NCBI RefSeq assembly: GCF_009859475.1
Contig: NZ_CP044549.1
Location: 6,261,782 to 6,325,781, forward strand
Length of the DNA: 64,000 nucleotides
Direction: 5' to 3'
DNA from: Hydrogenophaga sp. BPS33
GTDB lineage: Bacteria; Pseudomonadota; Gammaproteobacteria; Burkholderiales; Burkholderiaceae_C
Shown: in pieces, positions 3,734 to 20,045 of the stretch
Position numbering within the stretch: the stretch's first letter is position 1
Layout: each line of letters opens with the position of its first letter
The notes under the pieces: generated by a model
The model's input: the letters and a program-made list of their open reading frames with translations, nothing else
Told to the model about the DNA's origin: nothing
The model's database searches: none
Made by a program: the position numbers and the translations under genes

Positions 3734-3902
3734 GGATGGTGCGGGGGGTATTGGAAAAGGGAGGACTGCGCGGCGGCGCAAAACCTGCGATTTTATCGGC
3801 CCGGCTGTGGGAGACCCTTGGAAACAGCCCATGACCACGCGCGCGCTCATAATTCCTGACGCGTGTGGCCCCGTGTGCCCGGCACGCACACCCCACACCA
3901 CC

Positions 3903-4679
3903 ATGCCCCGACTCGCCGCCGACCCGTCCAACCCACCCCCGATCCCGGCCATGATCCTCGCCGCCGGGCGCGGCATGCGCATGCGGCCCCTGACCGATGA
4001 AACGCCCAAGCCGCTGCTGGCGGTGCGTGGCAAGCCGCTGATCCAGTGGCCCATGGAGTCGCTGGCGGCCGCGGGTTTCACCCGCTTCGTGGTCAACACC
4101 GCCTGGCTCGAAGAACAGCTGCAGGCGTTCTGCGCCGACTGGCAGGCCCGGCACGCCGGCACACACGTGACCGTCTCTCGCGAAGGCCAGGACTTTGGCT
4201 ATGCGCTGGAGACCGCCGGCGGCATTGCGCGCGCGCTGCCCTTGCTGGGCGACGTGTTCTGGGTGCTGGCGGGCGACGTGTTCGTGCCCGATTTCGCGTT
4301 CACGCCGCAGAGCGTGGCGCGCTTCCAGGCCAGCGACGGGTTGGCCCACATCTGGCTGGTGCCCAACCCGCCGCACAACCCGCGCGGCGACTTCGGCCTG
4401 AGCCCCGAAGGCCTGGCGCTGAACGAAGCCGACGTGAAGCACACCTACAGCACCATCGGCCTGTACCGGCGCGAGCTGTTCGAACCGCCCTGGTGCGAGA
4501 TCATCCCCGGCAACCCGCAGGGCACGGCCGAGCCGCTGGCACCGCTGCTGCGCCGTGCCATGCACGCGGGGCGGGTGAGTGCCGAGCTGTACGGCGGGCC
4601 ATGGGTGGACGTGGGCACGCCCGAACGCCTGGCGGAATTGAACGCCCCCCCCGCGCCGCCTGCGGCGTCACCCCCCTGA
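3903..4679 (+). CDS. murU: Nucleotidyltransferase, N-acetylmuramate-1-phosphate uridylyltransferase-like
   Basis: A sugar-1-phosphate nucleotidyltransferase of 258 residues. The signature [15 protein letters not shown] followed by PKPLL and the Asp pair around [10 protein letters not shown] mark the nucleotide and metal sites. The family members closest in size and motif are MurU enzymes, which convert MurNAc-1-phosphate to UDP-MurNAc in cell-wall recycling; the partner kinase AmgK is probably the gene at 36932. A mannose-1-phosphate guanylyltransferase activity cannot be excluded. An internal ATG at 3951 starts exactly at MILAAG and would give a more typical 242 residues. The last dozen codons (Ala/Pro-rich) come from a dispersed repeat that also supplies the stop. 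Confidence 0.85.
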
Positions 4680-4733
4680 GGGGGCGCACCCTGGGACCGG
4701 CAGAGCCGGATCCTCGGGAGCCCTGGATGTGGG
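4646..4733 (+). repeat. Dispersed GC-rich 3' element, copy 1
   Basis: This is the most diverged of five copies. Shared order: a C-run, GCGCCGC-x-GCGGCG hairpin, CCCCC-TGA-GGGGG hairpin, then a GGACCGGCAGAGCCGG block and CCCTGGATG. It overlaps the 3' end of murU and contains its stop codon. It points in the same transcriptional sense relative to its upstream gene as the other copies. Confidence 0.7.
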
Positions 4734-4757
4734 CGTGTCTGCTTCAAAGGCTCCACA

Positions 4758-6164
4758 ATGGCGCCCATGGACGCCACCACCCACACCGACCTCTACGCCG
4801 ATCGCCGCGCCCGCGTGGCAGCTCAACTGGGGGCCGGCGGCATCGCCATCGTGCCCACCGCGCTGGAACGCCCGCGCAACCGCGACACCGACTTCATCTA
4901 CCGCCACGACAGCTACTTCTTCTACCTCACCGGCTTCACCGAGCCCAACGCGTGGCTGGTGATCAACGCCGAAGGCCACACCACGCTGTTCTGCCAACCC
5001 AAGGATCTCGAACGCGAGATCTGGGACGGCATTCGACTGGGACCCGATGCGGCGCCCGAGCACCTGGGTGTGAGCGAGGCCTACCCGGTCACCGAGTTGA
5101 ACCAGCGCCTGCCCAAGCTGCTGGAGAACCGCAGCACCGTGTGGTACCCCTTCGCCACGCACGAGGGCCTGGAGAGCCGTGTCAACGGCTGGCTGCAACC
5201 GGTGCGCGCGCGGGTGCGCTACGGCGCGCTGTGCCCCGATTCGCAACGCGACCTGTGTGGTGTGCTCGACGACATGCGGCTGATCAAGGACGCATTTGAG
5301 CAGTCGACCATGCGCCGCGCCTCGCAGATCAGCGCCCAGGCCCACATCCGCGCGATGCAACGCAGCGCGGCCATGCTGCGCGCCGGGCAGGACGTGCGCG
5401 AATACCACCTGGACGCCGAGCTGCTGCACACCTTTCGCGAGCATGGCTCGCAATACCCGGCCTACGGCAGCATCGTCGCCGCCGGCGCGAATGCCTGTGT
5501 GCTGCACTACCGCGCCGATGCCGCACCCATCCGCAATGGCGAACTGGTGCTGATCGACGCGGGCTGCGAACTCGACGGCTACGCCAGCGACATTACCCGC
5601 ACCTTCCCGGCCAACGGTGTTTTCACCGGCCCGCAGCGCGAGCTCTACGACCTGGTGCTGGCCAGCCAGGATGCGGCCGTGGCCGCCACCCGGGCCGGAG
5701 CACGCTTCGTCGAGCCGCACGAGGCCACGGTGGCGGTGCTGGCGCAAGGCCTGCTCGATGTCGGCCTGCTGGACAGGAACAAGGTCGGCAACGCGCAGGA
5801 CGTGATCGCCAACCGCAGCTACTTTCCGTTCTACATGCACCGCACCGGCCACTGGCTGGGCATGGACGTGCACGACTGCGGCAGCTACGTGGAACCTTCC
5901 GAACTGGGCAGCGTGAGCGAGCGCAAGGACCCCTTGAGCGGCGAGACCATCAAGGACCGACCCAGCCGCATCCTGCGCCCGGGCATGGTGCTCACCATCG
6001 AACCGGGTCTGTACGTGCGTCCGGGTGAAAACGTACCGGAAAAGTTCTGGAACATCGGCATCCGCATTGAGGACGACGCGATCGTCACCGCCACGGGCTG
6101 CGAGCTCATCACTCGGGATGTGCCGGTCAAGGCCGACGAGATCGAGGCACTGATGCGCGGTTGA
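4758..6164 (+). CDS. pepP: Xaa-Pro aminopeptidase (aminopeptidase P)
   Basis: Dinuclear-metal M24 peptidase that removes N-terminal residues preceding proline. It has 468 residues, compared with about 440 in E. coli. The N-terminal creatinase-like domain includes FIYRHDSYFFYLTGF. The C-terminal pita-bread domain shows the metal ligands in order: Asp in LIDAGCELDGY, Asp in ASDITRTF, His in HRTGHWLGMDVHD, Glu in IEPGLYV and Glu in IRIEDD. The ATG at 4758 is used here; a second ATG at 4767 is equally possible. It follows murU by 78 bases, most of them repeat element. Confidence 0.95.
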   Translation: MAPMDATTHTDLYADRRARVAAQLGAGGIAIVPTALERPRNRDTDFIYRHDSYFFYLTGFTEPNAWLVINAEGHTTLFCQPKDLEREIWDGIRLGPDAAPEHLGVSEAYPVTELNQRLPKLLENRSTVWYPFATHEGLESRVNGWLQPVRARVRYGALCPDSQRDLCGVLDDMRLIKDAFEQSTMRRASQISAQAHIRAMQRSAAMLRAGQDVREYHLDAELLHTFREHGSQYPAYGSIVAAGANACVLHYRADAAPIRNGELVLIDAGCELDGYASDITRTFPANGVFTGPQRELYDLVLASQDAAVAATRAGARFVEPHEATVAVLAQGLLDVGLLDRNKVGNAQDVIANRSYFPFYMHRTGHWLGMDVHDCGSYVEPSELGSVSERKDPLSGETIKDRPSRILRPGMVLTIEPGLYVRPGENVPEKFWNIGIRIEDDAIVTATGCELITRDVPVKADEIEALMRG

Positions 6165-6302: not shown

Positions 6303-7487
6303 ATGAAACCTACTCTGCTCGTTCTGGCCCTGTCGGCCTCTCTATCCTTGCTGTCGGCCACGGCCCACGCCCAAGCGGCCGCGCCCGCGACTGCCACGGC
6401 CCCGGCTGCGGCGACCTACGCCACCGTCGCCACGCACTACGCGGCCCTGGTACACGCCAACTACAGCGACACGCTCGCCGCCGCGCAGGAGATGCAGACG
6501 GCCATCAAAGCCTTCGTGGCCGCGCCCTCGGCCGACGGCTTGGCGGCCGCGCGCAAAGCCTGGCTGGGCGCGCGCGAGTTTTATGGCCAGACCGAGGCGT
6601 TCCGCTTTTACGGCGGCCCGATCGACGACGACAAGGGCCCCGAGGGCCAGATCAACGCCTGGCCGCTGGACGAGTCGTACGTGGACTATGTGCAGGGCAA
6701 GCCCAAGTCGGGCCTGATCGCCAACACCAAGTTCAAGATCACCAAGACCAACCTGGCCAAGTTCAACGAGCGCGGTGGCGAGGAAAACATCAGCTCCGGC
6801 TGGCATGCCATCGAATTCCTGCTCTGGGGCCAGGACCTGAGCGAGAGCGGCCCGGGCAACCGCTCGTTCGAAGACTACGTGGACGGCAAGACCCCCAATG
6901 CCGACCGCCGCCGTCAGTTCCTGACCGTGGCGACCGAGCTGCTGGTCGACGACCTCAACTTCCTCGTCAAGGCCTGGGCGCCCGGCCAGAAAAACTACCG
7001 CGCGCGCTTCGAGAAGGGCGGCAAGGAATCGGTGCGCAAGATCATCGTGGGCCTGGGCTCGCTCTCGCGCGGTGAACTCTCGGGCGAGCGCATGGAAGTG
7101 GCGCTGAATTCGCAGGACCAGGAAGACGAACACTCGTGCTTCTCCGACAACACGCACCGCGACATCGTCACCAATGCCACCGGCATTCAGAACGTGTGGC
7201 TGGGTCAGTACAAGAAGCGCGACGGCAGCACCTTGCAAGGCCCGGGCATGCGCGACCTGGTCGCCGCCAAGAAGGCCGATCTGGCCGAGAAGACGACCGC
7301 GCAGATCGCCGCATCGGTGGCGGGTGCCGAATCCATTCCCGCACCGTTCGACCGCGCGCTGGCCAAGGGAGCGGCCGGCCGCCCGGCGATCGAGAAAACC
7401 GTGGCGAGCCTGGTCGCGCAGTCCAAGCTGCTGGTGGAATCGGCCACTGCGGTGGGCATCGCCAAGCTGACGTTGGTGGAACCCTGA
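6303..7487 (+). CDS. Imelysin-family (M75) periplasmic iron-regulated protein
   Basis: A 394-residue secreted protein with a signal peptide ending near AHAQ (about residue 24) and the imelysin domain over the rest. The family motif GxHxxE is present as GWHAIE (SGWHAIEFLLWG), followed by the usual DEHSCFSDNTHRD segment. Imelysin proteins (IrpA/EfeO relatives) act in periplasmic or outer-membrane-associated iron acquisition; despite the M75 label, peptidase activity is doubtful. The ATG at 6303 follows a Fur-box-like site. Downstream are a di-haem oxidoreductase, a second imelysin and a DUF1513 protein, a combination common in proteobacteria and thought to handle iron redox and uptake. Confidence 0.92.
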   Translation: MKPTLLVLALSASLSLLSATAHAQAAAPATATAPAAATYATVATHYAALVHANYSDTLAAAQEMQTAIKAFVAAPSADGLAAARKAWLGAREFYGQTEAFRFYGGPIDDDKGPEGQINAWPLDESYVDYVQGKPKSGLIANTKFKITKTNLAKFNERGGEENISSGWHAIEFLLWGQDLSESGPGNRSFEDYVDGKTPNADRRRQFLTVATELLVDDLNFLVKAWAPGQKNYRARFEKGGKESVRKIIVGLGSLSRGELSGERMEVALNSQDQEDEHSCFSDNTHRDIVTNATGIQNVWLGQYKKRDGSTLQGPGMRDLVAAKKADLAEKTTAQIAASVAGAESIPAPFDRALAKGAAGRPAIEKTVASLVAQSKLLVESATAVGIAKLTLVEP

Positions 7488-7488
7488 A

Positions 7489-7606
7489 CACCCCCCTGCG
7501 CCGCTGACGCGGCTTCCCCCCTCTGTTGCGCGCCTTCGGCGCTTCGAGGGGGGACGACACCTTGGGCCGGCGGAGCCGTCCCTTGGTGTCTGTGGATGAA
7601 GGCACG
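7489..7606 (+). repeat. Dispersed GC-rich 3' element, copy 2
   Basis: It starts immediately after the imelysin stop codon (7487). Order: CCCCCCTGCGCCGCTGACGC, GGCTTCCCCC, a GCGCCTTCGGCGC hairpin, GAGGGGGGAC, TTGGGCCGGCGGAGCC, then TCTGTGGATGAAGGCAC. It is oriented with the C-run end at the upstream gene's stop. The rest of the gap to 7755 shows no further gene. Confidence 0.85.
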
Positions 7607-7755
7607 TCTCGCCGGAGCCGTGCCTTCACTCCCTCGCCCCTCTGGGGAGAGGGCTGGGGTGAGGGGCACGCGTGAAGAGGTTTCCCTTTTTGCAATGCCC
7701 GCACCTTTGGTTTGCTGTTTTCATTGCTGCACTTGCATCTTCTGTAGTCCTCACC

Positions 7756-9249
7756 ATGTCGCTCTTTCCCAAAGCCACGCGCTTCGCGCTCGCCATGGGG
7801 GTCCTGCTCGGCGGCGCGACCGCCTTTGTCCTGCACGCCGACGAAGCACCTGACCCACTCGGTGAGAAGACCGGTGGCGCGACCACGGTCTACGCCACGG
7901 GCAAGAACGCGTTTTCCTTTCCACTGGCCAATCTGGACGACCCGGGGCGCACGCGCTTCGTGATCGGCAATTCTTTCTTCAAGCGCAACTGGGTCGAGGC
8001 ACCGGCGTCGACCACCGCGCGCGATGGGCTGGGGCCGCACTTCATCGCGCGCGCCTGCGCCGGCTGCCATGTGTTGGACGGCCGGGGCGAACCGCCCGAG
8101 TGGAAGAACACGCTCGGCCCCGAACCCGAAGGCACGGTGGCCCTGCTGATTCGCCTTTCTGTCGCCGGCACACCCGACCCCAAGGCAGGCGTGCGGCCCG
8201 ACCCGGTGTACGGCGACCAGTTCAACAACGCGGCGATCCAGGGCGTGAAGCCCGAGGGCCGGGTGGAGATCCGCTCGCGGCCGATCCACGGCCGCTTCAC
8301 CGACGGCACGCGTTACACGCTGCGGCAGCCGCTCTACAAGCTCACCGACCTGGCCTACGGCCCGTTCGCACCGGGCCTGATGGTGAGCCCGCGCATCGCG
8401 CCGCAGCTCGCCGGCGTGGGCCTGCTGGAAGCGATTCCCGAGGCGGAAATTCTGCGCAATGCGCGCGATCAGGCGGCCGCGCCCGGCCCCATCAAAGGCC
8501 AGGCCAACCGGGTGTGGGACGTGTTCGCGCAGGGTGAACGCGTGGGCCGCTTCGGCTGGAAGGCCAACGTGGCCACGCTGGCGCACCAGACCGCCGGAGC
8601 CTTCCATGGCGACATGGGCATCACTTCCAGCGTGCACCCGCTAGAGACCTGCACGCCAGCGCAGAAGGACTGCCTGGCCGCGCCCCATGGCGGCGGCCGC
8701 ACCAACGGCAGCGCGGGCATCGTGCCGGCCTCGATGGCGGTGGCACAGAAACCCGAGATCGACGACGACACGTTCGGCCAGGTGGTCTTCTACCAGGCCA
8801 CGCTGGCGCCCGCGGCGCGGCGCAACGTGAAGGACGCGCAGGTGCTGCGTGGCCAGGCGCTGTTCGCACAGGCGCAATGCGCGGCGTGCCACCGCCCGAG
8901 CTACGTCACCGCAGAAGGACCGTTCCCCAAACTGACCAGCCCGGCGCTCAAAGGCCAGCGCATCTGGCCCTACACCGACCTGTTGCTGCACGACATGGGG
9001 CCCGACCTCGCCGACGGCCGCCCCGACTTTCTCGCCAACGGCCAGCAGTGGAAAACACCACCGCTGTGGGGCATCGGCCTGATCAGAGACGTCAACGGCC
9101 ACACCCGCCTGATGCACGACGGGCGTGCCAACGGGGTGCTTGAAGCCATCCTCTGGCACGGCGGAGAAGCGCAGGCATCGAAAGAACAGGTGCTCAAGAT
9201 GAACCGCCGCGACCGGCAGTCGCTGGTGCTCTTTGTGGAGTCGCTATGA
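7756..9249 (+). CDS. Di-haem c-type oxidoreductase (DHOR family, COG3488)
   Basis: Periplasmic cytochrome-c-like protein of 497 residues from the ATG at 7756, starting with a signal or anchor segment (ATRFALAMGVLLGG). Two haem-attachment motifs are visible: CAGCH at 101-105 and CAACH at 375-379. The C-terminal half has the family's LLLHDMGPDLADGR and LWGIGLI segments around axial-ligand Met/His positions. An alternative ATG at 7672 would add 28 hydrophobic residues. Its stop overlaps the next start (ATGA), showing translational coupling to the second imelysin. A role in periplasmic iron redox chemistry is inferred from context; the old name 'thiol oxidoreductase' has no support here. Confidence 0.9.
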   Translation: MSLFPKATRFALAMGVLLGGATAFVLHADEAPDPLGEKTGGATTVYATGKNAFSFPLANLDDPGRTRFVIGNSFFKRNWVEAPASTTARDGLGPHFIARACAGCHVLDGRGEPPEWKNTLGPEPEGTVALLIRLSVAGTPDPKAGVRPDPVYGDQFNNAAIQGVKPEGRVEIRSRPIHGRFTDGTRYTLRQPLYKLTDLAYGPFAPGLMVSPRIAPQLAGVGLLEAIPEAEILRNARDQAAAPGPIKGQANRVWDVFAQGERVGRFGWKANVATLAHQTAGAFHGDMGITSSVHPLETCTPAQKDCLAAPHGGGRTNGSAGIVPASMAVAQKPEIDDDTFGQVVFYQATLAPAARRNVKDAQVLRGQALFAQAQCAACHRPSYVTAEGPFPKLTSPALKGQRIWPYTDLLLHDMGPDLADGRPDFLANGQQWKTPPLWGIGLIRDVNGHTRLMHDGRANGVLEAILWHGGEAQASKEQVLKMNRRDRQSLVLFVESL

Positions 9250-10319
9250 AAGTTGCCCCTATCCCTCTGGCGCTGGCCTGGACGCTGACCGCCTGCGGCA
9301 TGGCCACGGCGCAAAACGCCCCTGTCGTGGCCGCGCCGTACTACTCGGCCGAGCAGGCGATGCAAGGGCTCTACACCCACCATCTGCCGCCGCTTGCGAA
9401 GGCCTTCCAGAGCGAAGCCGATCGGCTGGTGAGCGCCGCGGACCAGCTCTGCCAAGGCCAGGCGACCTTGTCAGCGTTGCGTGCGCAATGGCAGACCACG
9501 CTGGAGCGTTGGGAAGCCCTGTCCACGCCCGCCGTCGGCCCCCTGGTGACGCGGCGCTCGCAGCGCCAGATCGACTTCTGGCCCACGCGGCCGGACCTGC
9601 TGCGACGCTCAATGGAAAAAGCCCCCGCCACGCTGGCCGACATGGAGCGCGTGGGCACGCCGGCCAAGGGTTTTCCGGCGCTGGACCTGTTGTTGCAGCA
9701 ATGGTCCCGCAAGGCGCCGACGCCCGATGCCTGCCGCTACGGCGGATTGATCGCGCGGGGCATCGCCGCCGAAGCACGTGCGCTGCAGAACGAGCTCGGC
9801 CCATGGGCCACGAAGGCGTGGGAAGACGAACCCGAGGTCACCACCGCTTCGCTCGCCGAATGGGTCAACCAGTGGCTCGCGGGTCTGGAGCGGCTGCGCT
9901 GGGCGCACATCGAGAAACCCATCACCACGCACCAGACCACGGGCAACGCGGCCAAGGGCACGCCGGTGCCGTACGCACGGCTGGACCGCGAGAGCAACCT
10001 GCGCGACTGGCGCGCGCAATGGCAAAGCCTGCGCACCCAAGGCCGCCTGCCACCCGGCGCGCCGCCACCGCCGGCGGGCCAGGCGCTGGTGCCAATGGAA
10101 GCGCTGCTGATGGGCCGTGGGCACCTGGCGCTGGCGCAGAAGTGGGGCCAGGCGCTGGGCCAGGTGAATGCCGGCATGGAGAAGCTCACGCCGCGTTCCA
10201 GTGAACGCGAGTTGCTGGCACTCGCGAAATCGATGAAGGCGGTGACGGTGCTGTTCCAGAACGAGGTGGCGGCGGCGCTGGATGTGCCTTTGGGGTTTTC
10301 CGACGCGGACGGGGACTGA
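9246..10319 (+). CDS. Second imelysin-family protein, divergent
   Basis: A 357-residue imelysin-like protein whose ATG overlaps the stop of the di-haem gene. The N-terminus ends in LTAC around residue 17, a possible lipobox, so it may be a lipoprotein; a normal signal peptide ending at ATAQ is the alternative. At the position of the usual GxHxxE/GFDALEYLLF motif it reads GFPALDLLLQQW, so the His and Glu are missing. The C-terminus (VTVLFQNEVAAALDVPLGFSD) is typical of the family. It probably works with the first imelysin as a structural or docking partner in iron handling. Confidence 0.85.
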   Translation: MKVAPIPLALAWTLTACGMATAQNAPVVAAPYYSAEQAMQGLYTHHLPPLAKAFQSEADRLVSAADQLCQGQATLSALRAQWQTTLERWEALSTPAVGPLVTRRSQRQIDFWPTRPDLLRRSMEKAPATLADMERVGTPAKGFPALDLLLQQWSRKAPTPDACRYGGLIARGIAAEARALQNELGPWATKAWEDEPEVTTASLAEWVNQWLAGLERLRWAHIEKPITTHQTTGNAAKGTPVPYARLDRESNLRDWRAQWQSLRTQGRLPPGAPPPPAGQALVPMEALLMGRGHLALAQKWGQALGQVNAGMEKLTPRSSERELLALAKSMKAVTVLFQNEVAAALDVPLGFSDADGD

Positions 10320-10322
10320 AAA

Positions 10323-11417
10323 ATGAACACCTCTGCACGCCTCTCACGCAGGCAATGGCTGCTGAGCGCAGCAGCGCTGGGCGTCACGCCTGTGTGGGGA
10401 AATTCACCCCATGCGGCGCGCCTGCTTTCGGCCTGGCAGACGTCGGATGAACACCGCATCGGTGTGATCGGTGTAAACGGCGCGCGCTGGTCGGTGCAGC
10501 GCTCGCTGGCGGTGCCCACGCGCGCGCACGGTCTGCTGCACGAAGCCGATGGCAGCGTGCTGGCCACGGCGCGCCGACCGGGCGATTGGCTGCTGCGCTG
10601 GCACCCCCAAAGCGGGCGCACGCAGTGGCACTGGATCGACGACGACCGCCGCTTCAACGGCCATGCCATCGCCAGTGCGGATGGCAACACGCTGTGGACG
10701 ACCGAGACCGATCTGGCCAACGCCCAAGGACGCCTCGGCGTGCGCGATGGCGCTTCGCTGGAAAAAACGGCCGAGTGGGCGACGCACGGCATGGACCCGC
10801 ACGAGCTCATCGTGCTGCCCCGGCAGGTGGGCGAGATGGCGGCCGGCAGCCTGATCGTGGCCAATGGCGGCATTCCCACGCTGCCCGAGACCGGGCGCAG
10901 CAAGCGCCAGCTCGACCGCATGGACGCCTCGCTGGTCGCGCTGGATCCGCGCGATGGCCGCCTGCTCGGTCAGTGGCGCCTTGAAGACCCGTTCCTCAGC
11001 ATCCGCCACCTGGCGTGGGACCCCGCTTCATCGACCGTGGGCATCGCGCTGCAGGCCGAGCACCCCGATGCCGATGCCCGGCAGCGTGCGCCGGTGTTCG
11101 CGGTGTGGAACGGTGAGCGCCTGCAAGCCTCGGTGAATCAACCGACCGTCAAGGGCTACGGCGGCGACATCTGCGCTTTGCCGCAGGGCGGCTTCGTGGT
11201 GAGCTGCCCGCGCGCGAACACGTTGGCCTTGTTCGGTAGCGATGCGCGGTGGCAACAGAACGTGGCGCATCGGCAGGCCTATGCCTTGGCCACCGCACAA
11301 GGACACTGGTGGGCCAGCGGTGCCGAAGGCGTGTGGTGCGCCCCTGAAGGCATCGACGCCAAGGCCACCACGCGCACGGGGCGTCTGCAGATCGACAACC
11401 ACTGGGTGGCCGTGTAG
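10323..11417 (+). CDS. DUF1513 periplasmic beta-propeller-like protein
   Basis: A 364-residue protein three bases after the second imelysin. It carries a twin-arginine-type leader (SRRQWLLSAAALG). The body has repeated blade-like strands such as GLLHEADGSVLATARRPGDW and HPHEL-like segments (GMDPHELIVLP), typical of DUF1513 proteins found at the end of imelysin/di-haem clusters. Function is unknown; export and a metal-binding propeller are inferred from the family. It is the last gene of the iron cluster and converges on ridA with a dispersed repeat between. Confidence 0.88.
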   Translation: MNTSARLSRRQWLLSAAALGVTPVWGNSPHAARLLSAWQTSDEHRIGVIGVNGARWSVQRSLAVPTRAHGLLHEADGSVLATARRPGDWLLRWHPQSGRTQWHWIDDDRRFNGHAIASADGNTLWTTETDLANAQGRLGVRDGASLEKTAEWATHGMDPHELIVLPRQVGEMAAGSLIVANGGIPTLPETGRSKRQLDRMDASLVALDPRDGRLLGQWRLEDPFLSIRHLAWDPASSTVGIALQAEHPDADARQRAPVFAVWNGERLQASVNQPTVKGYGGDICALPQGGFVVSCPRANTLALFGSDARWQQNVAHRQAYALATAQGHWWASGAEGVWCAPEGIDAKATTRTGRLQIDNHWVAV

Positions 11418-11558: not shown

Positions 11559-11942
11559 CTACATCCTCCAGGCCACGGCGTCGATTTCGACTTTCCAGCC
11601 CGGCTGGGCCAAGCCTGCAACGAACAACAAGGTCGATGCAGGCCGCGCATCGCCGAGGTAACGTTTGCGCACCGCGCCGTACACCGGCAGATCCGCCGGA
11701 TCGATGAGGAAGTGCTGCACCTTCACCAGGTGTTCCACGCCCATGTCGGCGTCGGCCAGCACCGCCAGCAGGTTGCGCCAAGCCGCATCGGCTTGTGCCT
11801 CGACCCCATCGGCCAGGCTGCCGTCCGGCAGCACGCCGACCTGGCCCGCGATGTGCAGCCATCGGCCACCGGCGGGTGCGCAAATGCCGTTCGAATAAGC
11901 GCCCAGCGGAGCGGCGATGGTGATGGGGTTGTGTACTTTCAT
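11559..11942 (-). CDS. RidA family protein (reactive enamine/imine deaminase-like)
   Basis: A 127-residue YjgF/YER057c/UK114 protein from the ATG at 11940-11942, which overlaps the stop of the upstream 431-aa gene. The family's core is visible: PLGAYSNGI near the N-terminus, IAGQVGVLPDG, EHLVKVQHFLID, and a C-terminal KVEIDAVAW. The active-site Arg seen in canonical RidA (about residue 105 of E. coli RidA) is not evident in the segment ASTLLFVAGL, so this is more likely a Rid subfamily with another activity. Last gene of the nine-gene operon; it may process an imine or enamine made by the diiron enzymes (inference). Confidence 0.88.
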   Translation of the reverse strand: MKVHNPITIAAPLGAYSNGICAPAGGRWLHIAGQVGVLPDGSLADGVEAQADAAWRNLLAVLADADMGVEHLVKVQHFLIDPADLPVYGAVRKRYLGDARPASTLLFVAGLAQPGWKVEIDAVAWRM

Positions 11943-13234
11943 ACGGCGGTCGGGGTGGTGGTGCGTTGAGAAGGGTGGCGTATGGCGCTCGCCACCAGGG
12001 CGTCGAGCGAACCGTTGGCCCATGCGCGGTACAGCGCCTCGCTGGTGAACAGGGGCAATTGGAGGCGCTCGCATGCGGCGCACAAGGCCGCCGGCGGGCC
12101 TGGGCGCTGGTCGAGCGGCAGATGGTTGTCGGCCAGGTAGACCAACAGGCAGGGCGCGGCCATCCCGGCCCGTTCGTCTTCCACCTGGTGGCGCAAGCGC
12201 GCGGCTTCCATGGCCACGGTCTGTGCGTCGGCCTCGGTGCCGGCGGTGATCGCGATCAAGCTCACGGCCTGGTTCGCGCGGCTAAGCACGACAGCGCGCC
12301 GGCTGACCGTGACGCGCTCCTGCTGCCACCCACCGCCCGCGCAGGCGCGCGCAAAGTCGGCCAGTGCCCATGTGGGTTCGCCCGCGCACAAGCTCCAGCC
12401 CCACTCGAGCTGGCGGCGGCGCGCGGCGGCCGCGTCCCGGCGTTCCTGCAGGCGCAGCAGTTCGGTCTCGATCTGCTGCTGCTCCAACCGGCAATCCCGC
12501 AGCACCGGCGGGAGGCAGATCGTGTCGGCAAGAAGGGGGGATGCGTGCTCATGGCGCAAGGACACGACGAGCCGCGCCAGCGCCTCCATCAAGACCCGTT
12601 GCTCCACCGCGCCGGCATCGGGCCGCAGCGCGGGCAGCAGCAGCACGCCACCGGGGTGGCGACGGTCGAAGCGCGCCACGCAGGCCTGCCCGACATGGGC
12701 GATCGGCATGCCAGCGCCGCCGTCGAGTGCAAAGGTCGGGCGCAACAGCGCGCGGGTGTCGTCGAAGAAGGCGGCGAAGGGTGCGCCAAAATCCGTGATC
12801 CGGGTCTCTTGCGCCAGGCCTTCAAGCGCCACGGGATCGCCCGGCAACGCTTCCAACAGGCTCAGCGGCACAGGCTCTTCCAGAGTGTGGAGCAGGAAAT
12901 CAGGCGCTTCGGACACCAGAACCACCACCAGCGCGCCCTGCTGCAGCGCGGCCCCGATCGCGCGCCGCGCTTCGCGCGTGCGGTGCGCCAAGCGGTTCGA
13001 CGCGGTGGGCGGCAGCACGCGCGCGCTGCGATCGCCTTCTACGTCGCGGTCCCAATGCCGCACCGTGTCGCCCAAGTCCCACACCAGCAAGTCGCAACGC
13101 ACGGGCAGGTCCCGCCCGAACGCGCATGAGGCCACGCCCTGCTCAATCGCCAGTGCGTCGACGCGGGCGATCGAGAGAAAGGGCAGGACCGCCGCAGGTT
13201 CGCCAGATGGCGTGGTACCGCGCCCAGCGGTCAT
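11939..13234 (-). CDS. Uncharacterised 431-aa protein with coiled coil
   Basis: I do not recognise this family. Its start overlaps the stop of the esterase gene and its stop overlaps the start of ridA, so it is translated within the operon. The N-terminal half (about 45-240) alternates beta strands and helices (CDLLVWDLGDTV, GALVVVLVSEAP, GGVLLLPALRPD), suggesting a Rossmann-like fold. Residues about 248-278 form a charged coiled coil. The C-terminal part (about 285-410) has a strand-helix pattern ending LPLFTSEALYRAW that loosely resembles degenerate PD-(D/E)XK nuclease-like domains, without a clear D-ExK triad. There is no signal peptide or membrane segment. A scaffold or nucleotide/ligand-sensing role is speculation. 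Confidence 0.8.
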   Translation of the reverse strand: MTAGRGTTPSGEPAAVLPFLSIARVDALAIEQGVASCAFGRDLPVRCDLLVWDLGDTVRHWDRDVEGDRSARVLPPTASNRLAHRTREARRAIGAALQQGALVVVLVSEAPDFLLHTLEEPVPLSLLEALPGDPVALEGLAQETRITDFGAPFAAFFDDTRALLRPTFALDGGAGMPIAHVGQACVARFDRRHPGGVLLLPALRPDAGAVEQRVLMEALARLVVSLRHEHASPLLADTICLPPVLRDCRLEQQQIETELLRLQERRDAAAARRRQLEWGWSLCAGEPTWALADFARACAGGGWQQERVTVSRRAVVLSRANQAVSLIAITAGTEADAQTVAMEAARLRHQVEDERAGMAAPCLLVYLADNHLPLDQRPGPPAALCAACERLQLPLFTSEALYRAWANGSLDALVASAIRHPSQRTTTPTAV

Positions 13235-14253
13235 GCCGACAACGCCTGCGGTTCGACCGCCAGCACACGGTCCAGGAAACGGCCCATGCTCTCGAAAGCC
13301 TGGCGCGGCGCTTCCATCATGCGGCCGTAGGTGAGGAAGCCGTGCACCGCGCCCCGGTAGACCTCCAGTTCGGCGTGGCCGCCGTAGTCCTGCACGGCCT
13401 GGTGCAGCCGCAGGGAGTCGTCGAACAGCACGTCGAGTTCGCAGGCGCCGATCAGCATCGGCGGCAGCTTGCGCAGGCCGGCGAACATCGGGAACGCCTG
13501 CGGCACGGACTCGCCCAGACGCCCACCGAGGTAGTGGTGCTCGTAGCGCACCATGGCGGCCTTGGACATGCCGAAGCGGCCATCGGCATAGGCTTCGTAA
13601 GAGCGCGTGGGGCGCACCGGCAGGTAGGCGCCGTACAACAGCAGAAGGGCATCGGGCATGCGCTCACCCGCGTCGCGCGCGCGCATCGCTTCCAGCAGCG
13701 CGAGGTTGGCGCCCGCCGAGTCGCCCGCGAGCACCCAGCGCGTGCCGGGCGGCCGCTCCCGGCGCAGCGCGGCCAGCACGCGCGTGAGGTCGTGGAAAGC
13801 GGCCGGGAACGGGTGCTCGGGAGCGAGCGAGTAATCCAGTGCGAGCACAGGGTGGCGCGTCGCATCGGCCAGGCCGCGCACGATCGCGTCGTGCGTCTCG
13901 ATCGCGCCCACGCACCAGCCTCCGCCGTGCAGGTAGATGATCTCGGTGTCTTCGCGCGCGTCGATCGGCAGGTTGCGCCGCATGCGCACGCTGCGTCCCT
14001 CGATCACCATCTGCTGTTCTTCGGCACTGGCCATGCGCGGCGCCGTCTCGATCCACCACTTGCGCTCTTCGATCAGGGCGCGGCGCGCGTCCTCGAACGA
14101 AATCTCGTAGCGGCTGGGCTGACCCTTCTTGCGCTCGGTCAGGATGTCGAGCACGCGCTGCATCTCAGGCGTCGGCTGGGGCCGGTACGCCGGGGACGCA
14201 TTGTCAAAAACATCGCCGCCATCGCTGGGCGGCTGCAGATCGGTCAATGTCAC
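13231..14253 (-). CDS. Alpha/beta hydrolase of the hormone-sensitive-lipase type
   Basis: A 340-residue cytosolic carboxylesterase-like enzyme. The HSL oxyanion motif HGGGWCVGA, the nucleophile elbow GDSAG, the acid in ACELDVLFDDS and the base in GAVHGF are all present and in order, so the triad looks intact. The N-terminal cap helix region (PEMQRVLDILTERKKG) fits the family. It is followed with a 4-base overlap by the 431-aa gene and preceded by the two diiron genes with a 37-base gap. It may hydrolyse the transported substrate or a product; the substrate is unknown. Confidence 0.92.
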   Translation of the reverse strand: MTLTDLQPPSDGGDVFDNASPAYRPQPTPEMQRVLDILTERKKGQPSRYEISFEDARRALIEERKWWIETAPRMASAEEQQMVIEGRSVRMRRNLPIDAREDTEIIYLHGGGWCVGAIETHDAIVRGLADATRHPVLALDYSLAPEHPFPAAFHDLTRVLAALRRERPPGTRWVLAGDSAGANLALLEAMRARDAGERMPDALLLLYGAYLPVRPTRSYEAYADGRFGMSKAAMVRYEHHYLGGRLGESVPQAFPMFAGLRKLPPMLIGACELDVLFDDSLRLHQAVQDYGGHAELEVYRGAVHGFLTYGRMMEAPRQAFESMGRFLDRVLAVEPQALSA

Positions 14254-14290
14254 GCCTCTCTCCGTTCTTCAATGGGTCTTTCGCGCGGAC

Positions 14291-15223
14291 TCACACGAGC
14301 CCCAGGCGGTCATGCCGCATAAGGGGCAGTTCGATGTCGAGTTCGCCCAGCCGTTGGCGCGAGCGCGTGAGCCAGTCCAGCAACACCGCTTCTTCGTCGG
14401 CCGCGACGGCGGCTCCCAGGCCGGCTTGCGCGAGCAAGCGGCGATCCTCCCTGTCCTGCGCCGTGTCGATCTCGGTGGCCAGCGTGGGCACGTGGTAGCC
14501 CTTCCACAGGACCTCGCCGATCCAGCGGCCGATGTGCTCGGCCACGGCCGTGCGGGCGGTAGCGTCCATCTGCGCGGCGCGGTTCTCCAGGTACAACCAG
14601 CCGAAGGTGGCGTGGCGTTGCTTGGCCTGGGTGATCTTCTCCATCACCGTGGCCACCACGGGATGGCGGCTGTGCTGGCGGTACAGCGTGCTCAGGTCGA
14701 ACTCCAGTCCGTCTTCCATCGCGCAGTGCACCGCCACGTAGGGGTCGAGCGGCTGGCGGCCGTCGAGTGCAAGCCGATAGCGGTGCTGGTTGAACACCGC
14801 TTCCCACGCGGGATTCACAGGGCGATCGAGGTAGCCGCCGAGGTTCTCGGCGATCTGGTGAAAGCACTCGATATGCCAGGCCTCTTCGGTGTTGCGCACG
14901 GTCAGGAAGTACTTGGGATCGGCCTCGCGCCCCATTTCCAGGCAGAAGCGCACCAGCAACGCGGGCGTCTCGGCCAGACCGGTGTATTCGGTCCAGGCGC
15001 GACGGCTCCAGACACGGCGCGCGGCGTCTCGCGTGGCTTCGTCGAAGGCGCTGGCGCGCAGGTCGTCCCAGACCACGTCGCGATAAGGATCCCAGCGCCC
15101 GACCTTGGCCTGCTCGTAGAGCGAGCGGATCGAATCGATGGTGGTGCTCAAACCCAGCGGAAAACGCTGCTCCACCAGGATGGCGGTGGTGCCGGTGCCA
15201 GGCGACGCTTGCAATGCGGTCAT
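14291..15223 (-). CDS. Ferritin-like diiron protein, degenerate paralogue
   Basis: A 310-residue protein clearly paralogous to its upstream neighbour (shared WSRRAW-EY, EExxH, AEN/EKLGGY and RHxxFGW blocks). The first metal-site residues are kept: Glu79 in TEYTG and Glu114/His117 in EEAWH. In the second ExxH the Glu is replaced by Lys201 (KQRH), so a standard two-iron site cannot form as in the partner. It starts three bases after the upstream stop, implying equimolar expression. It may be a structural subunit of a heteromer, or carry a mononuclear or altered site. Confidence 0.85.
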   Translation of the reverse strand: MTALQASPGTGTTAILVEQRFPLGLSTTIDSIRSLYEQAKVGRWDPYRDVVWDDLRASAFDEATRDAARRVWSRRAWTEYTGLAETPALLVRFCLEMGREADPKYFLTVRNTEEAWHIECFHQIAENLGGYLDRPVNPAWEAVFNQHRYRLALDGRQPLDPYVAVHCAMEDGLEFDLSTLYRQHSRHPVVATVMEKITQAKQRHATFGWLYLENRAAQMDATARTAVAEHIGRWIGEVLWKGYHVPTLATEIDTAQDREDRRLLAQAGLGAAVAADEEAVLLDWLTRSRQRLGELDIELPLMRHDRLGLV

Positions 15224-15226
15224 CCT

Positions 15227-16162
15227 TCAGATCTCCGTGTCGTACTTGTGGTGGCGGAACATCGGGATGTCGATGCCCCAGGCGTTCTTCATCTCCGCGC
15301 GGATGCGCGCCAGCGATGCAGCGAAGATGGGTTTCTCCAGTTCCTCGACGATGGCGCCCAGGCCGGCTTCCCAGGCCAGGCGGTCGTGCGCCATTTCGAC
15401 TTCGGTGGAGGGTGACGAAGGCGCCAGCCACGCCGAGTGGTAGCCGTTGAGCTCGACCTTCTCGATCATGGTGATCACCGCCTGGCGCATGTTCTCGATC
15501 TCATCGGCTGTCATGTGCGGCAGGCGGCTCTGGATGAAGTGCCAGCCGAACGCGCAGTGGCGTACCTCGTCGCGCATGATGAATTTGCAGATCTGGCGCG
15601 CCACCGGGTTGGGCGTGATCTCCACGAGGTGACGGAACACGTCGAACGCGATCTCCTCGGCCGCGCACACCAACGCGGCAATGGTGCTCTCCAGGCTGGC
15701 ATCGGGATCGAGCGCAGCGCGGCGCACGCCGTGCGTGGCCACAGCGCCCTGGTACTCGGTCTTGGCCGGCGCTTCGAAATAGCCACCGAGTTTCTCGGCC
15801 ATGCGGTAGCAGGCCTCGGCATGGCGCGACTCTTCTTGCGAACGCAGCGTGAAGTAGAGCTGCATGTCGGGCGCGAACTTGCCCACGCAATAGCGAATCT
15901 GCAGCGTCGGGCTCTCGGAGATCGCGCCGTACTCGCTCCAGGCGCGCCGGCTCCAGTAGTAACGCGCGCCCAAGCGCTGCTCTTCGGTGTAGTCCTCGGG
16001 GCGCAGGGCGTCCCAGTCCACATCGGTAGCGGGGTTCCACTGGTTGTGCGTGGCGTTGCGCAGCAGGTCGCGGATGCGCGGGATGCGCACGCCCAGGTCG
16101 AGCGGGAAACGCTGCTCGGGACGGTCCAGGATGGTGGGTACTTCGAGATACGCGGTGCTCAT
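15227..16162 (-). CDS. Ferritin-like diiron oxygenase/oxidase candidate
   Basis: A 311-residue all-helical protein with the full carboxylate-bridged diiron ligand pattern: Glu77, Glu111-x-x-His114 (EESRH), Glu169/170 (AEEIAFD) and Glu199-x-x-His202 (DEVRH). This spacing is that of ferritin-like O2-activating enzymes (AurF-, desaturase- and haem-oxygenase-like diiron families). The exact family cannot be named from sequence reading alone. It sits between the ABC substrate-binding protein and its degenerate paralogue, so an oxidative attack on the imported compound is the natural inference. Start at the ATG 16160-16162, with a GAAAG sequence upstream. Confidence 0.87.
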   Translation of the reverse strand: MSTAYLEVPTILDRPEQRFPLDLGVRIPRIRDLLRNATHNQWNPATDVDWDALRPEDYTEEQRLGARYYWSRRAWSEYGAISESPTLQIRYCVGKFAPDMQLYFTLRSQEESRHAEACYRMAEKLGGYFEAPAKTEYQGAVATHGVRRAALDPDASLESTIAALVCAAEEIAFDVFRHLVEITPNPVARQICKFIMRDEVRHCAFGWHFIQSRLPHMTADEIENMRQAVITMIEKVELNGYHSAWLAPSSPSTEVEMAHDRLAWEAGLGAIVEELEKPIFAASLARIRAEMKNAWGIDIPMFRHHKYDTEI

Positions 16163-16190
16163 GAATGGCTTTCGGGGATGGCGGTGGACA

Positions 16191-17276
16191 TCAGGCACTG
16201 CGCCGCAGCTCGGCCGCGACGGCGTCGCGCACGTTCGGCGGTGTGGCGCTCATGAGCCACTCCTTGATCTTGATTTTTTCCGGGTAGATCTTGAGTTCGT
16301 GGAAGCTGTCGGCCAGGCGTTGCACTTCGTTGGCGGTGTTCTCGTCGACCGCTTTGAGGCTGCCCGCGCCGGAGTACGAGAGCAGGCGGTTCTTGGCCAG
16401 GTAGAGGTACACGTCGTGCTCCATCGGATTGTTGCCGAAGCCGCCGAGCTTCTGGAACTGGCCCACCACCTCTTCGGGCTTGGCCTCGAGCTGGCGCTGC
16501 GCGTCGCGCACGTTGCGCAGCAGGATGGCGACAGCTTCGGGATGGTCCTTGGCGAACTGTTCGCGCGCGACGAAGAAGCCGTAGTCGTAGGTCTTCACGC
16601 CGGGCAGCATGGTGGCGTTGTAGCGGCGGCGCGCCAACTCCATCGTGGGCTGCCACGACAGCCAGGCGTCGATGCGCTTGTTGGCGAAGGCGGCTTCCGC
16701 ATCGGGCGCGGCCAGGTTCACGTACTGGATGTCCGAGAGCTTCATGCCCGCAGCCTCGAGTGTGCGCACCAGGGCGTAGGTGCCGGTGGTACCGCGGTGG
16801 TCGGCCACGCGCTTGCCCTTGAGGTCCTGCACGCTCTTGATGCCCGAGTCGGCGTGGACCAGCAGGTAGCAGGTGTCGCTGGGCAAGGGATACACGCCCA
16901 GCGGCACCACCGGCACCTTGCCGCCCACCGCGTAGATCATGGCGGTGGAGGTGGCGAAGGAGAAGTCGATCGCGCCACCGCGAATGGCTTCAATGATGGG
17001 CAGCGTGGCGGGGAAGCCCGGGCGCCAGTCGATCTTGGCGCCCCCCAGGTCCTTCGACGGGTTCATGCCGCCGATGCCGTAGCGCAGCACGGTGCCCGGC
17101 TCGGCCTTGCCTTCGCCGATCAACGCGTAGCGGATGGACGCGGGCATCTTGCCCTGCGCCAGGGACAGGCCGGGCACGGCGCTCAGCACGGTGCCGCCGG
17201 CGGCGGCCGTCAACAGCGAACGGCGCGACAGCGCGCAGGACGATGGGGAGCAAACAGACGAAGACAGGCTAGACAT
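16191..17276 (-). CDS. ABC transporter substrate-binding protein, SsuA/TauA/NMT1-like
   Basis: Periplasmic solute-binding protein of 361 residues. A twin-arginine-like leader (SRRSLLTAAAGG) is followed by the SsuA-type body: IRYALIGEGKAEPG, GGAIDFSFATSTAMIYA, DLKGKRVADHRGTTGTYALVR and the helix FANKRIDAWLSW. This class binds sulfonates, nitrate, taurine or small aromatic ions; the ligand is not evident. The ATG at 17274-17276 has GGAG seven bases upstream and is preferred over the ATG at 17288. It belongs with the permease and ATPase encoded just upstream on the same strand. Confidence 0.93.
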   Translation of the reverse strand: MSSLSSSVCSPSSCALSRRSLLTAAAGGTVLSAVPGLSLAQGKMPASIRYALIGEGKAEPGTVLRYGIGGMNPSKDLGGAKIDWRPGFPATLPIIEAIRGGAIDFSFATSTAMIYAVGGKVPVVPLGVYPLPSDTCYLLVHADSGIKSVQDLKGKRVADHRGTTGTYALVRTLEAAGMKLSDIQYVNLAAPDAEAAFANKRIDAWLSWQPTMELARRRYNATMLPGVKTYDYGFFVAREQFAKDHPEAVAILLRNVRDAQRQLEAKPEEVVGQFQKLGGFGNNPMEHDVYLYLAKNRLLSYSGAGSLKAVDENTANEVQRLADSFHELKIYPEKIKIKEWLMSATPPNVRDAVAAELRRSA

Positions 17277-17333
17277 CGGGAACTCCATGAAAGTGGTGAA
17301 AGAAGGCGGGGAAGGTGGTAACGGACAAAGAGC

Positions 17334-18047
17334 TCAATGGATGAGACTCTCGAGAAGCGACTCTTTCATCTTGGCGAGATGGGCGTCGCCGCGGTGGCGC
17401 GGGCGTGGCAGGTCGATGCGGATGTCTTGCAGCACGCCGCCGTCGCCGATGACGATCACGCGGTCGGACAGCACCAGGGCCTCCTCGACGTCGTGCGTGA
17501 CGAGCATGACGGTGCAAGGCTTCTCCAGCCAGAGCCTCTCGAGCAGTTGCTGCGCGGTCACCCGGGTGAGCGCGTCCAGCGCGCCGAAGGGTTCGTCGAG
17601 CATCAGCCAGTCCGGGTGCTGAATCAGCGCGCGCGCTAGTGCCACGCGCTGGCGCTGGCCACCCGAGAGCTGCGAGGGCCACAGCGTTTCCTTGCCCTGC
17701 AGGCCAACGGCCTTCATGAGTGTGAGCGCGTCTTGTTCGCGGCCGTTGAGGCCCAGTTGCACGTTCTGCAACGCGGTGCGCCACGGCAGCAGGCGGTCTT
17801 CCTGGAACATCACGCGGATGGTGGGCGGCGCGTGGTCCGCGCGCTGCCCCACAGGCGAGATCTGGCCGCGCACCGGCTTCTCCAGTTTGGAGATCAGGCG
17901 CAGCAAGGTGCTCTTGCCGGTGCCGCTGGCGCCCAGGAAGGAGACGAAGCTGCCAGGCTCGATGTCGAGATCGAGACGGTCGAACACGCGGCTGGCGCCG
18001 TAGCTGTGACCCAGGTCGCGGATCTGGAGGCCGACGACGGCGTTCAT
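17334..18047 (-). CDS. ABC transporter ATP-binding protein, SsuB/TauB-like
   Basis: A 237-residue importer ATPase. Walker A is GASGTGKST, the Q-loop is FQEDRLLPW, the signature is LSGGQRQR, Walker B is LMLDEPFGALD and the switch His lies in LVTHDVEEA. The FQEDRLLPW form is typical of the nitrate/sulfonate/taurine group. The start overlaps the permease stop (ATGA), so the two are coupled. It energises import with the permease at 18044 and the binding protein at 16191. Confidence 0.95.
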   Translation of the reverse strand: MNAVVGLQIRDLGHSYGASRVFDRLDLDIEPGSFVSFLGASGTGKSTLLRLISKLEKPVRGQISPVGQRADHAPPTIRVMFQEDRLLPWRTALQNVQLGLNGREQDALTLMKAVGLQGKETLWPSQLSGGQRQRVALARALIQHPDWLMLDEPFGALDALTRVTAQQLLERLWLEKPCTVMLVTHDVEEALVLSDRVIVIGDGGVLQDIRIDLPRPRHRGDAHLAKMKESLLESLIH

Positions 18048-18910
18048 GGTTGGGCTCCTCGGGGTTGGTAGCTGCTGTGCCAGCGAAGCACGCGCGCTTC
18101 GACCAGGCGGGTCAATTGGTCGGCCAGCAGGCCGGCGAACGAATAGATCAGGATGGCCAGGATGACGCGGTCGTTGCGCATCATTTCGCGCGCGTTCTGC
18201 GCGATGAAGCCAATGCCGTCCTGCGCGTTGATGGTCTCGGCCACCACCAGCGTGAGCCAGGCCACGCCGAGTGAGTAGCGGATGCCGGTGAGGATGGAGG
18301 GCATCGCACCCATGAGGATGACGTCGCGGATCAGCTCCCACTGGTTCAGGCCGTAGGCGCGGCCCAGCTGGATGAGGCGCGCGTCCACGTTCTTGATGCC
18401 GTTGACCGTGTTCAGGTACACCGGGAACAGCGTGCCCATGGCCACGAGAATGATCTTGGGCTCTTCGCCGATGCCGAACCACGCGATCATCAAGGGCACG
18501 AGCGCGAGGTGGGGCACGACGCGCACCATCTGCAGCGTGCGGTCGACCAGGCCTTCGGCCACGTTGGACATGCCGACCAGGAAGCCCAGCACCAGGCCGA
18601 GCGTGGCACCGATGCCGAAGCCCGCGGCGATGCGCATCAGGCTGACCCCGATGCCCTTCTGCAGCTCGCCCGTTTCCATCAAGTCGAGCGCGGCCTGCAG
18701 CACAGCGGTGGGTGCCGGCAGCGTGCCGGGCGAGACCCAGGCAAAGGTGGCCGACGCTTGCCACAGGATCAACGCACAGATCGGCACGATCCAGGGCAGC
18801 AGGTGGTGGAAGTTGAAGCGCGGCGGGCGCGCGCGTATGGCGCTGGCGGCCTGCGCGGCGGCGGACTCCAGCGGCGGGGCAACGGCGGATGAAGAGCTGG
18901 GCGATGTCAC
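18044..18910 (-). CDS. ABC transporter permease, SsuC/TauC-like
   Basis: Inner-membrane BPD-type permease of 288 residues with about six membrane segments. The EAA loop is present around GRAYGLNQWELIRDVILMGAMP. The preferred start is a GTG at 18908-18910 with AAGGA seven bases upstream; in-frame sequence further upstream is low-complexity and Arg-rich and is not credible coding. The N-terminus is Ser/Ala/Pro-rich before the first membrane segment. It is encoded 62 bases after the GntR regulator. Confidence 0.92.
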   Translation of the reverse strand: MTSPSSSSAVAPPLESAAAQAASAIRARPPRFNFHHLLPWIVPICALILWQASATFAWVSPGTLPAPTAVLQAALDLMETGELQKGIGVSLMRIAAGFGIGATLGLVLGFLVGMSNVAEGLVDRTLQMVRVVPHLALVPLMIAWFGIGEEPKIILVAMGTLFPVYLNTVNGIKNVDARLIQLGRAYGLNQWELIRDVILMGAMPSILTGIRYSLGVAWLTLVVAETINAQDGIGFIAQNAREMMRNDRVILAILIYSFAGLLADQLTRLVEARVLRWHSSYQPRGAQP

Positions 18911-18972
18911 AGAGATTCCTTTGGAGAAGGGGTGTGAGAAAGGGCGGAAGGCGGGCCGACGAAGCGCAGTGC

Positions 18973-19842
18973 TCAGGTCGGCGCGCGGGCCATGTCGCTG
19001 GGCAGATCGGTCGTCGCGTCGTCGTTGATGTGGAATTGGCTGACGCCGCCTGCGTCCTTGGCGCCGAGGTCCACCGAGAAGCCGCAGCGCATGCGCTTGG
19101 CCGGGTAGATGGAGCGCCCACACATCACGGGCATGTCGGTGTCGGTGTAATAGACCATCTCGCGCACCAGCAACGGGCTGTACGGATCGAGCTGCAGCAT
19201 CTGCTCACCCTCCTCGCCGGCCAGAGAGGCCTCAATGCGGTTGTCGCCCCGGCGCAGCCGCACGCGGCGCTTGAGCAGGTCCAGCAGCGACTGGCTGGCC
19301 GCTTCGGAGCGCTGCATGGAGTCGCCGAAGTCGGGGTGGATGTAGCGGTAGTCGTACGACACCGGGCCGCTGGCATCGCTTCGCATGCGCTCCACCTGCA
19401 GCACCAGCGTGCCTTTGGGAATGCGCAGCATGGCCGCCACCTCGTCGCTGCAGGGCAGCATGTCAAAGCGCGCCAACGTGAGCGAAAGCGGACGGCCGCT
19501 GCGCGCCCACTGCTCGGGCAGGTTCATCGAAGGGTCGAAGGCTTCGTCAAAGCGCTCGCGGTTGACGAAAGTGCGGCTACCGCGTTGGCGCGAAAGAAAG
19601 CCTTCGCTGGACAGGCGCTGCAACGCCTGGCGCACAGTGGCGCGGCTGACGTCAAAGATGCTGCACAGCTCGCTCTCGGAATAGAAGGCATCGCTCGGGT
19701 AATCACCGCGCGCGATCATGTCCTGCAGGCGGTGCACCACCTGCGCGTACAGCGGCAGCGGCGACATGCGGTCCAGGGAAATCGTGCGCCCGCCACTGGC
19801 CGGGCGCTTCTGAAGAACATCGAGATCGTCGGAGGTGTTCAT
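18973..19842 (-). CDS. GntR-family regulator with UTRA ligand domain
   Basis: DNA-binding repressor or activator of the HutC type. The winged-helix domain reads PLPLYAQVVHRLQDMI, SESELCSIFDVSRATVRQAL and a wing with GFLSRQRGSRTFV. The UTRA effector domain follows (LQVERMRSDASGPVSYDYRYI; PLLVREMVYYTDTDMPV). It heads the transport/diiron operon and probably controls it in response to the substrate or a product. The ATG at 19840-19842 is taken as the start; in-frame ATGs at 19854 and 19875 are alternatives. A TTGACA and a GTACGTAC palindrome lie within 19860-19885 and could be promoter and operator. Confidence 0.9.
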   Translation of the reverse strand: MNTSDDLDVLQKRPASGGRTISLDRMSPLPLYAQVVHRLQDMIARGDYPSDAFYSESELCSIFDVSRATVRQALQRLSSEGFLSRQRGSRTFVNRERFDEAFDPSMNLPEQWARSGRPLSLTLARFDMLPCSDEVAAMLRIPKGTLVLQVERMRSDASGPVSYDYRYIHPDFGDSMQRSEAASQSLLDLLKRRVRLRRGDNRIEASLAGEEGEQMLQLDPYSPLLVREMVYYTDTDMPVMCGRSIYPAKRMRCGFSVDLGAKDAGGVSQFHINDDATTDLPSDMARAPT

Positions 19843-20045
19843 GCCTATTGTCATCTTGTTCGCAAGTACGTACATGTCAATATACGTTCATTGAGCAAGA
19901 CCCGGGCCAGGGTAAACACCAGTAAAAATCGCCGTTCAGCACAAAAAACACGCGCCTAATCGCCCCAAAAGCGCCCGTAGCGCACCAGAGAGGTGAGCGC
20001 AGCCCCGCGTTGCCGGGCGTCGGGGAAAAATAGTGTGAACAGGCC

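Follow-up and report, generated by a model that had tools for sequence, protein, structure and literature searches.

Ferritin-like dimetal-carboxylate oxygenases of the R2lox/AurF/RNR R2 class share the ligand pattern E, ExxH, E, ExxH over four helices, and PaaA and PaaC of phenylacetyl-CoA epoxidase both adopt a ferritin-like fold. In the Rut pyrimidine pathway (RutA-D), an oxygenase, a hydrolase, a Rid-family protein, an alpha/beta hydrolase and an importer are combined, and RutA is flavin-dependent. According to the available excerpt of the source, one subunit of the PaaA/PaaC pair is catalytic and provides Glu/Asp/His ligands, while the other is structural (PMC4498308). Similarly, the accessible part of another report describes the heterodimer AibH1H2, which acts on an amino acid and has a dinuclear O2 site in one subunit, while the other is thought to be structural (PMC10401708). 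Here, we analyzed a stretch of 64,000 nucleotides from Hydrogenophaga sp. BPS33 (NZ_CP044549.1, positions 6,261,782 to 6,325,781; subsequently designated the window, to which unlabelled coordinates refer). It contains a nine-gene operon encoding a GntR/UTRA regulator, a three-component ATP-binding cassette (ABC) importer, the AurF-like paralogues diA and diB, the hydrolase Est, a protein of 431 aa (U431) and a Rid-family protein. We propose that this operon is probably catabolic (or detoxifying) and combines import with the action of a heteromeric oxygenase, consisting of catalytic diA and degenerate diB, followed by hydrolase and Rid steps.

Results

Six distinct loci carrying both diA and diB were compared: the window, L016 (Azospirillum rugosum), L017 (a Burkholderiales metagenome-assembled genome), L025 (genome G101), L030 (genome G584) and L031 (Paraburkholderia PREW-6R, recovered again as G1238). 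diB directly follows diA in all six, and in five of them a GntR/UTRA regulator, an ABC importer, a Rid protein and at least one hydrolase are present as well. As this gene set recurs in 5/6 loci, the operon is best read as a pathway dedicated to uptake and oxidation. In the original prediction, importer, O2-activating site, hydrolase, Rid protein and ligand-sensing regulator looked like a complete pathway for uptake and oxidative processing of a small organic compound, and the joint recurrence of these parts supports this; two diiron enzymes, or any lean towards sulfonates drawn from the SsuABC likeness, are not supported, and conservation does not extend to U431, which is present in three of the six loci only. 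The type of hydrolase differs: L016 encodes a formamidase-like alpha/beta hydrolase, as judged from its HGGxW motif (best NCBIfam model HaHSL_fam, below cut-off), L025 and L030 possess both this and the Est-like kind, and in L031 an amidase follows Rid, while a weak relative of Est lies farther away.

diA (15227..16162, minus strand like the entire operon) carries four Glu and two His at positions 89, 123/126, 181 and 211/214, which is the complete ligand pattern of the R2lox/AurF/RNR R2 class. All six ligands are kept in the diA copies of all six loci, in 32/32 diA rows of alignment A3 (the window protein and 31 chosen from 120 listed relatives, one being identical to the L016 copy) and in three of three outside homologues, named diC/diD. 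The protein would accordingly bear a dimetal-carboxylate site (diiron or Mn/Fe) and act as oxygenase in a heteromer with diB. The family matches the folds of the oxygen-activating proteins R2lox and VlmB, and diA scores 30.0 bits with the AurF family PF11583, barely above the curated cut-off of 29.6, whereas diB stays below it (12.4 bits, E 0.086). Pfam also contains a PaaA_PaaC family, which is absent from the matches of both proteins up to E 0.1. In an alternative, diA works like AurF or VlmB and oxidizes an amine nitrogen, yielding a hydroxylamine, oxime, nitroso or azoxy compound, while Rid and the hydrolase clear imines and esters, so that an amine or an N-oxidised natural product is degraded or detoxified. 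We regard such an N-oxygenase pathway as rather unlikely.

diB (14291..15223) is 34% identical to diA and deviates from the ligand pattern in all six loci: the helix-4 Glu at position 211 is replaced by Lys in five copies and by Tyr in one. The window protein retains E89, E123, H126 and H214, with Asp at 181 and Lys at 211, and the other ligand positions drift between copies, L017 having Leu at position 89. In the phylogenetic tree, diA and diB fall on separate sides (support 99/98 and 99/100), the window diB clusters with the diB proteins of the five relatives (support 99/100), and the diB stem is longer than the diA stem (1.47 vs 0.62 changes per column, with the root placed for drawing only). 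Hence, of the proposed "paired diiron proteins" the pair of adjoining AurF-like paralogues stands, while the full ligand set is confined to diA. We propose that diB is a diverged paralogue that is short of one metal ligand and may have a structural, regulatory or substrate-gating role, comparable to that of PaaC beside PaaA. That both proteins are active and catalyze two successive oxidations appears very improbable: the ligands retained in the window diB would fit this idea, but the substitution at position 211 in 6/6 copies and the long diB stem speak against it, and no active dimetal site of the AurF/R2lox class is known to us in which Lys occupies one of the ligand positions.

The importer comprises an SsuC-like permease (18044..18910; PF00528), an SsuB-like ATPase of 237 aa (17334..18047; PF00005) and an SsuA/NMT1-type substrate-binding protein (SBP) of 365 aa (16191..17288; PF09084). 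SsuC, the aliphatic sulfonates ATPase and SsuA (TIGR01728) are their best NCBIfam models, and none reaches the curated cut-off (269.2/347, 261.8/395 and 143.1/163.5 bits, respectively). The nearest PDB match of the SBP is 2x26 (SsuA; E 7.1e-23). Among the five importer-bearing diA/diB loci, the Ssu type occurs in the window only, while L016, L025, L030 and L031 have a LIV (branched-chain) importer, and a sulfonate substrate is therefore not implied. A sulfonate- or sulfur-scavenging operon, in which the importer supplies a sulfonate that diA/diB desulfonate, could be argued from the Ssu models and the SsuA structure, but we reject it as leading interpretation and consider it very improbable, given the unmatched cut-offs, the LIV importers elsewhere and the fact that the Pfam matches of the nine genes include no desulfonase of the FMN-dependent or TauD-like kind. 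The regulator (18973..19875; 300 aa, HutC-type; PF07702 85.6 bits, PF00392 59.1 bits) has a 36-46% identical counterpart in four relative loci. A rough scan for its operator returned short imperfect palindromes, none of which was seen to be common to the loci; the chance expectation of such palindromes was not computed.

Est (13231..14253) is an alpha/beta hydrolase of the hormone-sensitive-lipase type (PF07859, 164.5 bits) with HGGG and GDSAG motifs, and its nearest PDB match is the carboxylesterase 1jji. The Rid protein (11559..11942) clearly exceeds the cut-off of PF01042 (73.6 vs 27.3 bits) and scores below that of TIGR00004, the Rid family detoxifying hydrolase (54.6 vs 106.25 bits). Its motifs ARPAS (beginning at residue 99) and KVEIDA (beginning at residue 117) were equated by eye with Arg105 and Glu120 of E. 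coli, i.e. it has the conserved Arg and Glu of the imine-hydrolysing Rid subfamilies. The accessible part of PMC4433059 ties this Arg to imine hydrolysis and states that nothing is known about the in vivo substrates of Rid1-Rid3. By BLAST, the Rid proteins of the clusters rank first against the window Rid (48-61%), followed by the own-genome Rid L042 with 39%. Its own genome yielded 17 other Rid matches, 16 of which were compared (one weak match was excluded); among these, the diiron-linked Rid of L029 is the nearest to the window protein. There, a second, distant diiron gene (25% identity to diA) is followed by this Rid (55%) and an alpha/beta hydrolase (L029:8759-11036; C1 about 4649759-4652036), and the set adjoins a LysR-type regulator and a Bug-type binding protein, both labelled by eye from sequence.

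U431 (11939..13234), which the original prediction had left unexplained, can be accounted for in part. It represents a very small family, with full-length copies only beside diA in the genomes searched. The N-terminal part probably has a glutamine-amidotransferase-like (GATase-1-like) fold; the corresponding fold matches (VIA rows) cover only about residues 16-236. None of the Cys residues is invariant in nine aligned sequences, i.e. the catalytic Cys of class I glutamine amidotransferases is missing, and catalysis by this first domain is unlikely. A long helix (243-284) and an alpha/beta C-terminal part are predicted, and the predicted order of helices and strands might hint at a restriction-endonuclease-like fold of the latter. 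A role as defence protein was considered and rejected, as five members gave no PADLOC match.

The nine co-directional genes form an unbroken row from 19875 down to 11559, and the ORF list together with Pfam and NCBIfam scans confirmed the operon and its domain identities. Instead of the four ATGA-type overlaps claimed, inspection of the junctions found three: permease/ATPase (18044-18047), Est/U431 (13231-13234) and U431/Rid (11939-11942). The remaining gaps comprise 62 nt between regulator and permease, counted to the likely GTG start at 18910 that has AAAGGA upstream, 45 nt between ATPase and SBP, 3 nt between diA and diB, and 37 nt between diB and Est. SBP and diA are separated by 28 nt when diA starts at the likelier ATG 16162; an alternative GTG start at 16198 is possible and would overlap the SBP gene by 8 nt. 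A convergent row on the plus strand encodes imelysin, a di-haem peroxidase-like protein, a second imelysin and DUF1513 (6303-11417), and a FecCD-type importer lies upstream of the operon; the genes on both flanks look unrelated to it.

With E values of 1e-3 or below, diA has 538 protein relatives; the 120 listed among them are 60-97% identical, yet few of the sampled species genomes carry the gene. At E 0.001, it was found in 5/100 family genomes including its own, the other four at 24-26% identity. In partly overlapping samples at E 1e-30, the positives amounted to 5/399 genomes of the order (the own genome, one diA+diB genome and three with single diD genes of 34-35% identity), 2/399 of the family including its own, 1/398 of the phylum (its own), 1/398 of the family of G218, to which the own genome does not belong (PREW-6R), and 1/1 and 1/9 in the genera of G101 and G584, both being known loci. 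diA is present in 3 of 72,556 plasmid records, PREW-6R among them, and a contig scan for diA found two loci, only in close relatives. Single-gene diD homologues (~34%) with all six ligands occur at L026:4614-5555 (G243) and L028:9584-10558 (G338). Plasmid 2 of Variovorax sp. RA8 (L032:7935-9987) carries a distant single-gene diiron homologue (24%) that adjoins the gene of a 2Fe-2S protein; the surrounding cluster also has a LIV importer, an AMP-binding protein and an acetyl-CoA acetyltransferase; the 2Fe-2S neighbour may reveal the reductase type of the family.

Discussion

Judging from the gene families, the pathway could operate as follows. A small, nitrogen-containing organic compound would enter via the ABC importer and be sensed by the UTRA domain of the regulator, rendering the operon substrate-inducible. 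The diA/diB heteromer would oxidize it adjacent to the nitrogen. Of the resulting products, the N-acyl or ester-type intermediate would be cleaved by Est (in other species by a related hydrolase or an amidase), and Rid would hydrolyse the enamine or imine to a carbonyl compound and ammonia, with U431 as an accessory, sometimes missing and probably non-catalytic component. As the Pfam scan identified no reductase among the nine genes, electrons would have to be supplied by either a general reductase or the substrate. The sequences themselves show which genes occur and recur together, the metal-ligand pattern, the degeneracy of diB and the Arg of Rid; the partnership of diA with diB, induction, the succession of reactions and the type of substrate are inferred. 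More tentatively, and with considerable doubt, we suggest an undescribed class of two-subunit AurF/R2lox-type oxygenases, sparse but broadly distributed in soil proteobacteria, which obtained the metal-poor partner by duplication and drives a Rut-like ring opening of N-heterocycles or enamides, before hydrolases and then Rid release carbonyl compound and ammonia.

Several observations weigh against a dedicated pathway with a diA/diB heteromer at its core. Only six diA/diB loci were available for comparison, and in one of them, L017 (14 kb; diA and diB at 3484-5247), no regulator, importer, Rid or hydrolase was found: of eight neighbouring frames scanned, three had no Pfam match, and the matches of the other five were to a methyltransferase, an AidB-type acyl-CoA dehydrogenase, a Glu/Leu/Phe/Val dehydrogenase, an IclR regulator and citrate synthase. 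Hydrolases vary between formamidase-like, esterase and amidase, and the bond cleaved may differ between loci. In a weakly resolved tree whose bootstrap had not settled, the Rid proteins of the clusters failed to group together: they do not lie on one side of a single branch (2 changes), and 0% of 200 bootstrap trees unite them. In four of the six diB copies, five ligand positions out of six are still occupied by Glu, Asp or His, so that diB could yet bind a metal. Finally, the tie of both proteins to known oxygenases by sequence is weak: in single-sequence PDB searches diA reached E 0.0013 at best and diB gave no match, and the diA-heavy profile A3 reaches R2lox only at E 0.042, profile A4 at 2.3e-06.

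The operon represents a recurring, testable catabolic module, whose oxygenase would be of unusual make-up within the AurF/R2lox class, joining a full-ligand and a degenerate subunit. Moreover, Rid is a partner in most loci, and this setting could reveal the in vivo substrate of a Rid protein. In agreement with the earlier statement that no described pathway with this set is known, searches of open literature listed no cluster with these genes, which is weak evidence as most subscription papers lay outside their scope. All parts taken singly belong to known kinds, and with the same reservation the heteromeric AurF/R2lox-type pair together with Rid and importer appears undescribed.

Among the closest known systems, R2lox shows 12-16% identity in the VIA rows and differs in operon context. 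The AurF-type N-oxygenases (PF11583) and the azoxy synthase VlmB share the marginal Pfam match of diA and the fold (VlmB), respectively, whereas the diB partner, importer and Rid context belong to the operon. The Rut pathway follows the same logic of oxygenase, hydrolase, Rid, alpha/beta hydrolase and importer, but diA/diB are not flavin-dependent, unlike RutA, and the RutC model did not appear among the NCBIfam matches of the window Rid at E 0.01, its presence in the library being unchecked. The tetramethylpyrazine operon tpdABC was discarded as parallel, since the accessible part of the source describes tpdA as a putative flavin monooxygenase (PMC6099782). AibH1H2, as portrayed in the available excerpt, resembles the proposed diA/diB complex in having one O2-site subunit and one subunit thought to be structural, but its fold is distinct from that of typical bimetallic oxygenases, and a small Rieske protein co-occurs in 90% of AibH2-like gene neighbourhoods (PMC10401708). 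Compared with PaaA/PaaC, the operon has Rid and an esterase instead, no CoA ligase or reductase was identified among its nine genes, and diA/diB lack the PaaA_PaaC match; nonetheless, PaaA/PaaC, as far as the excerpt extends, resembles the proposed diA/diB complex in being a pair of one catalytic and one structural subunit of the same fold encoded in a catabolic operon (PMC4498308).
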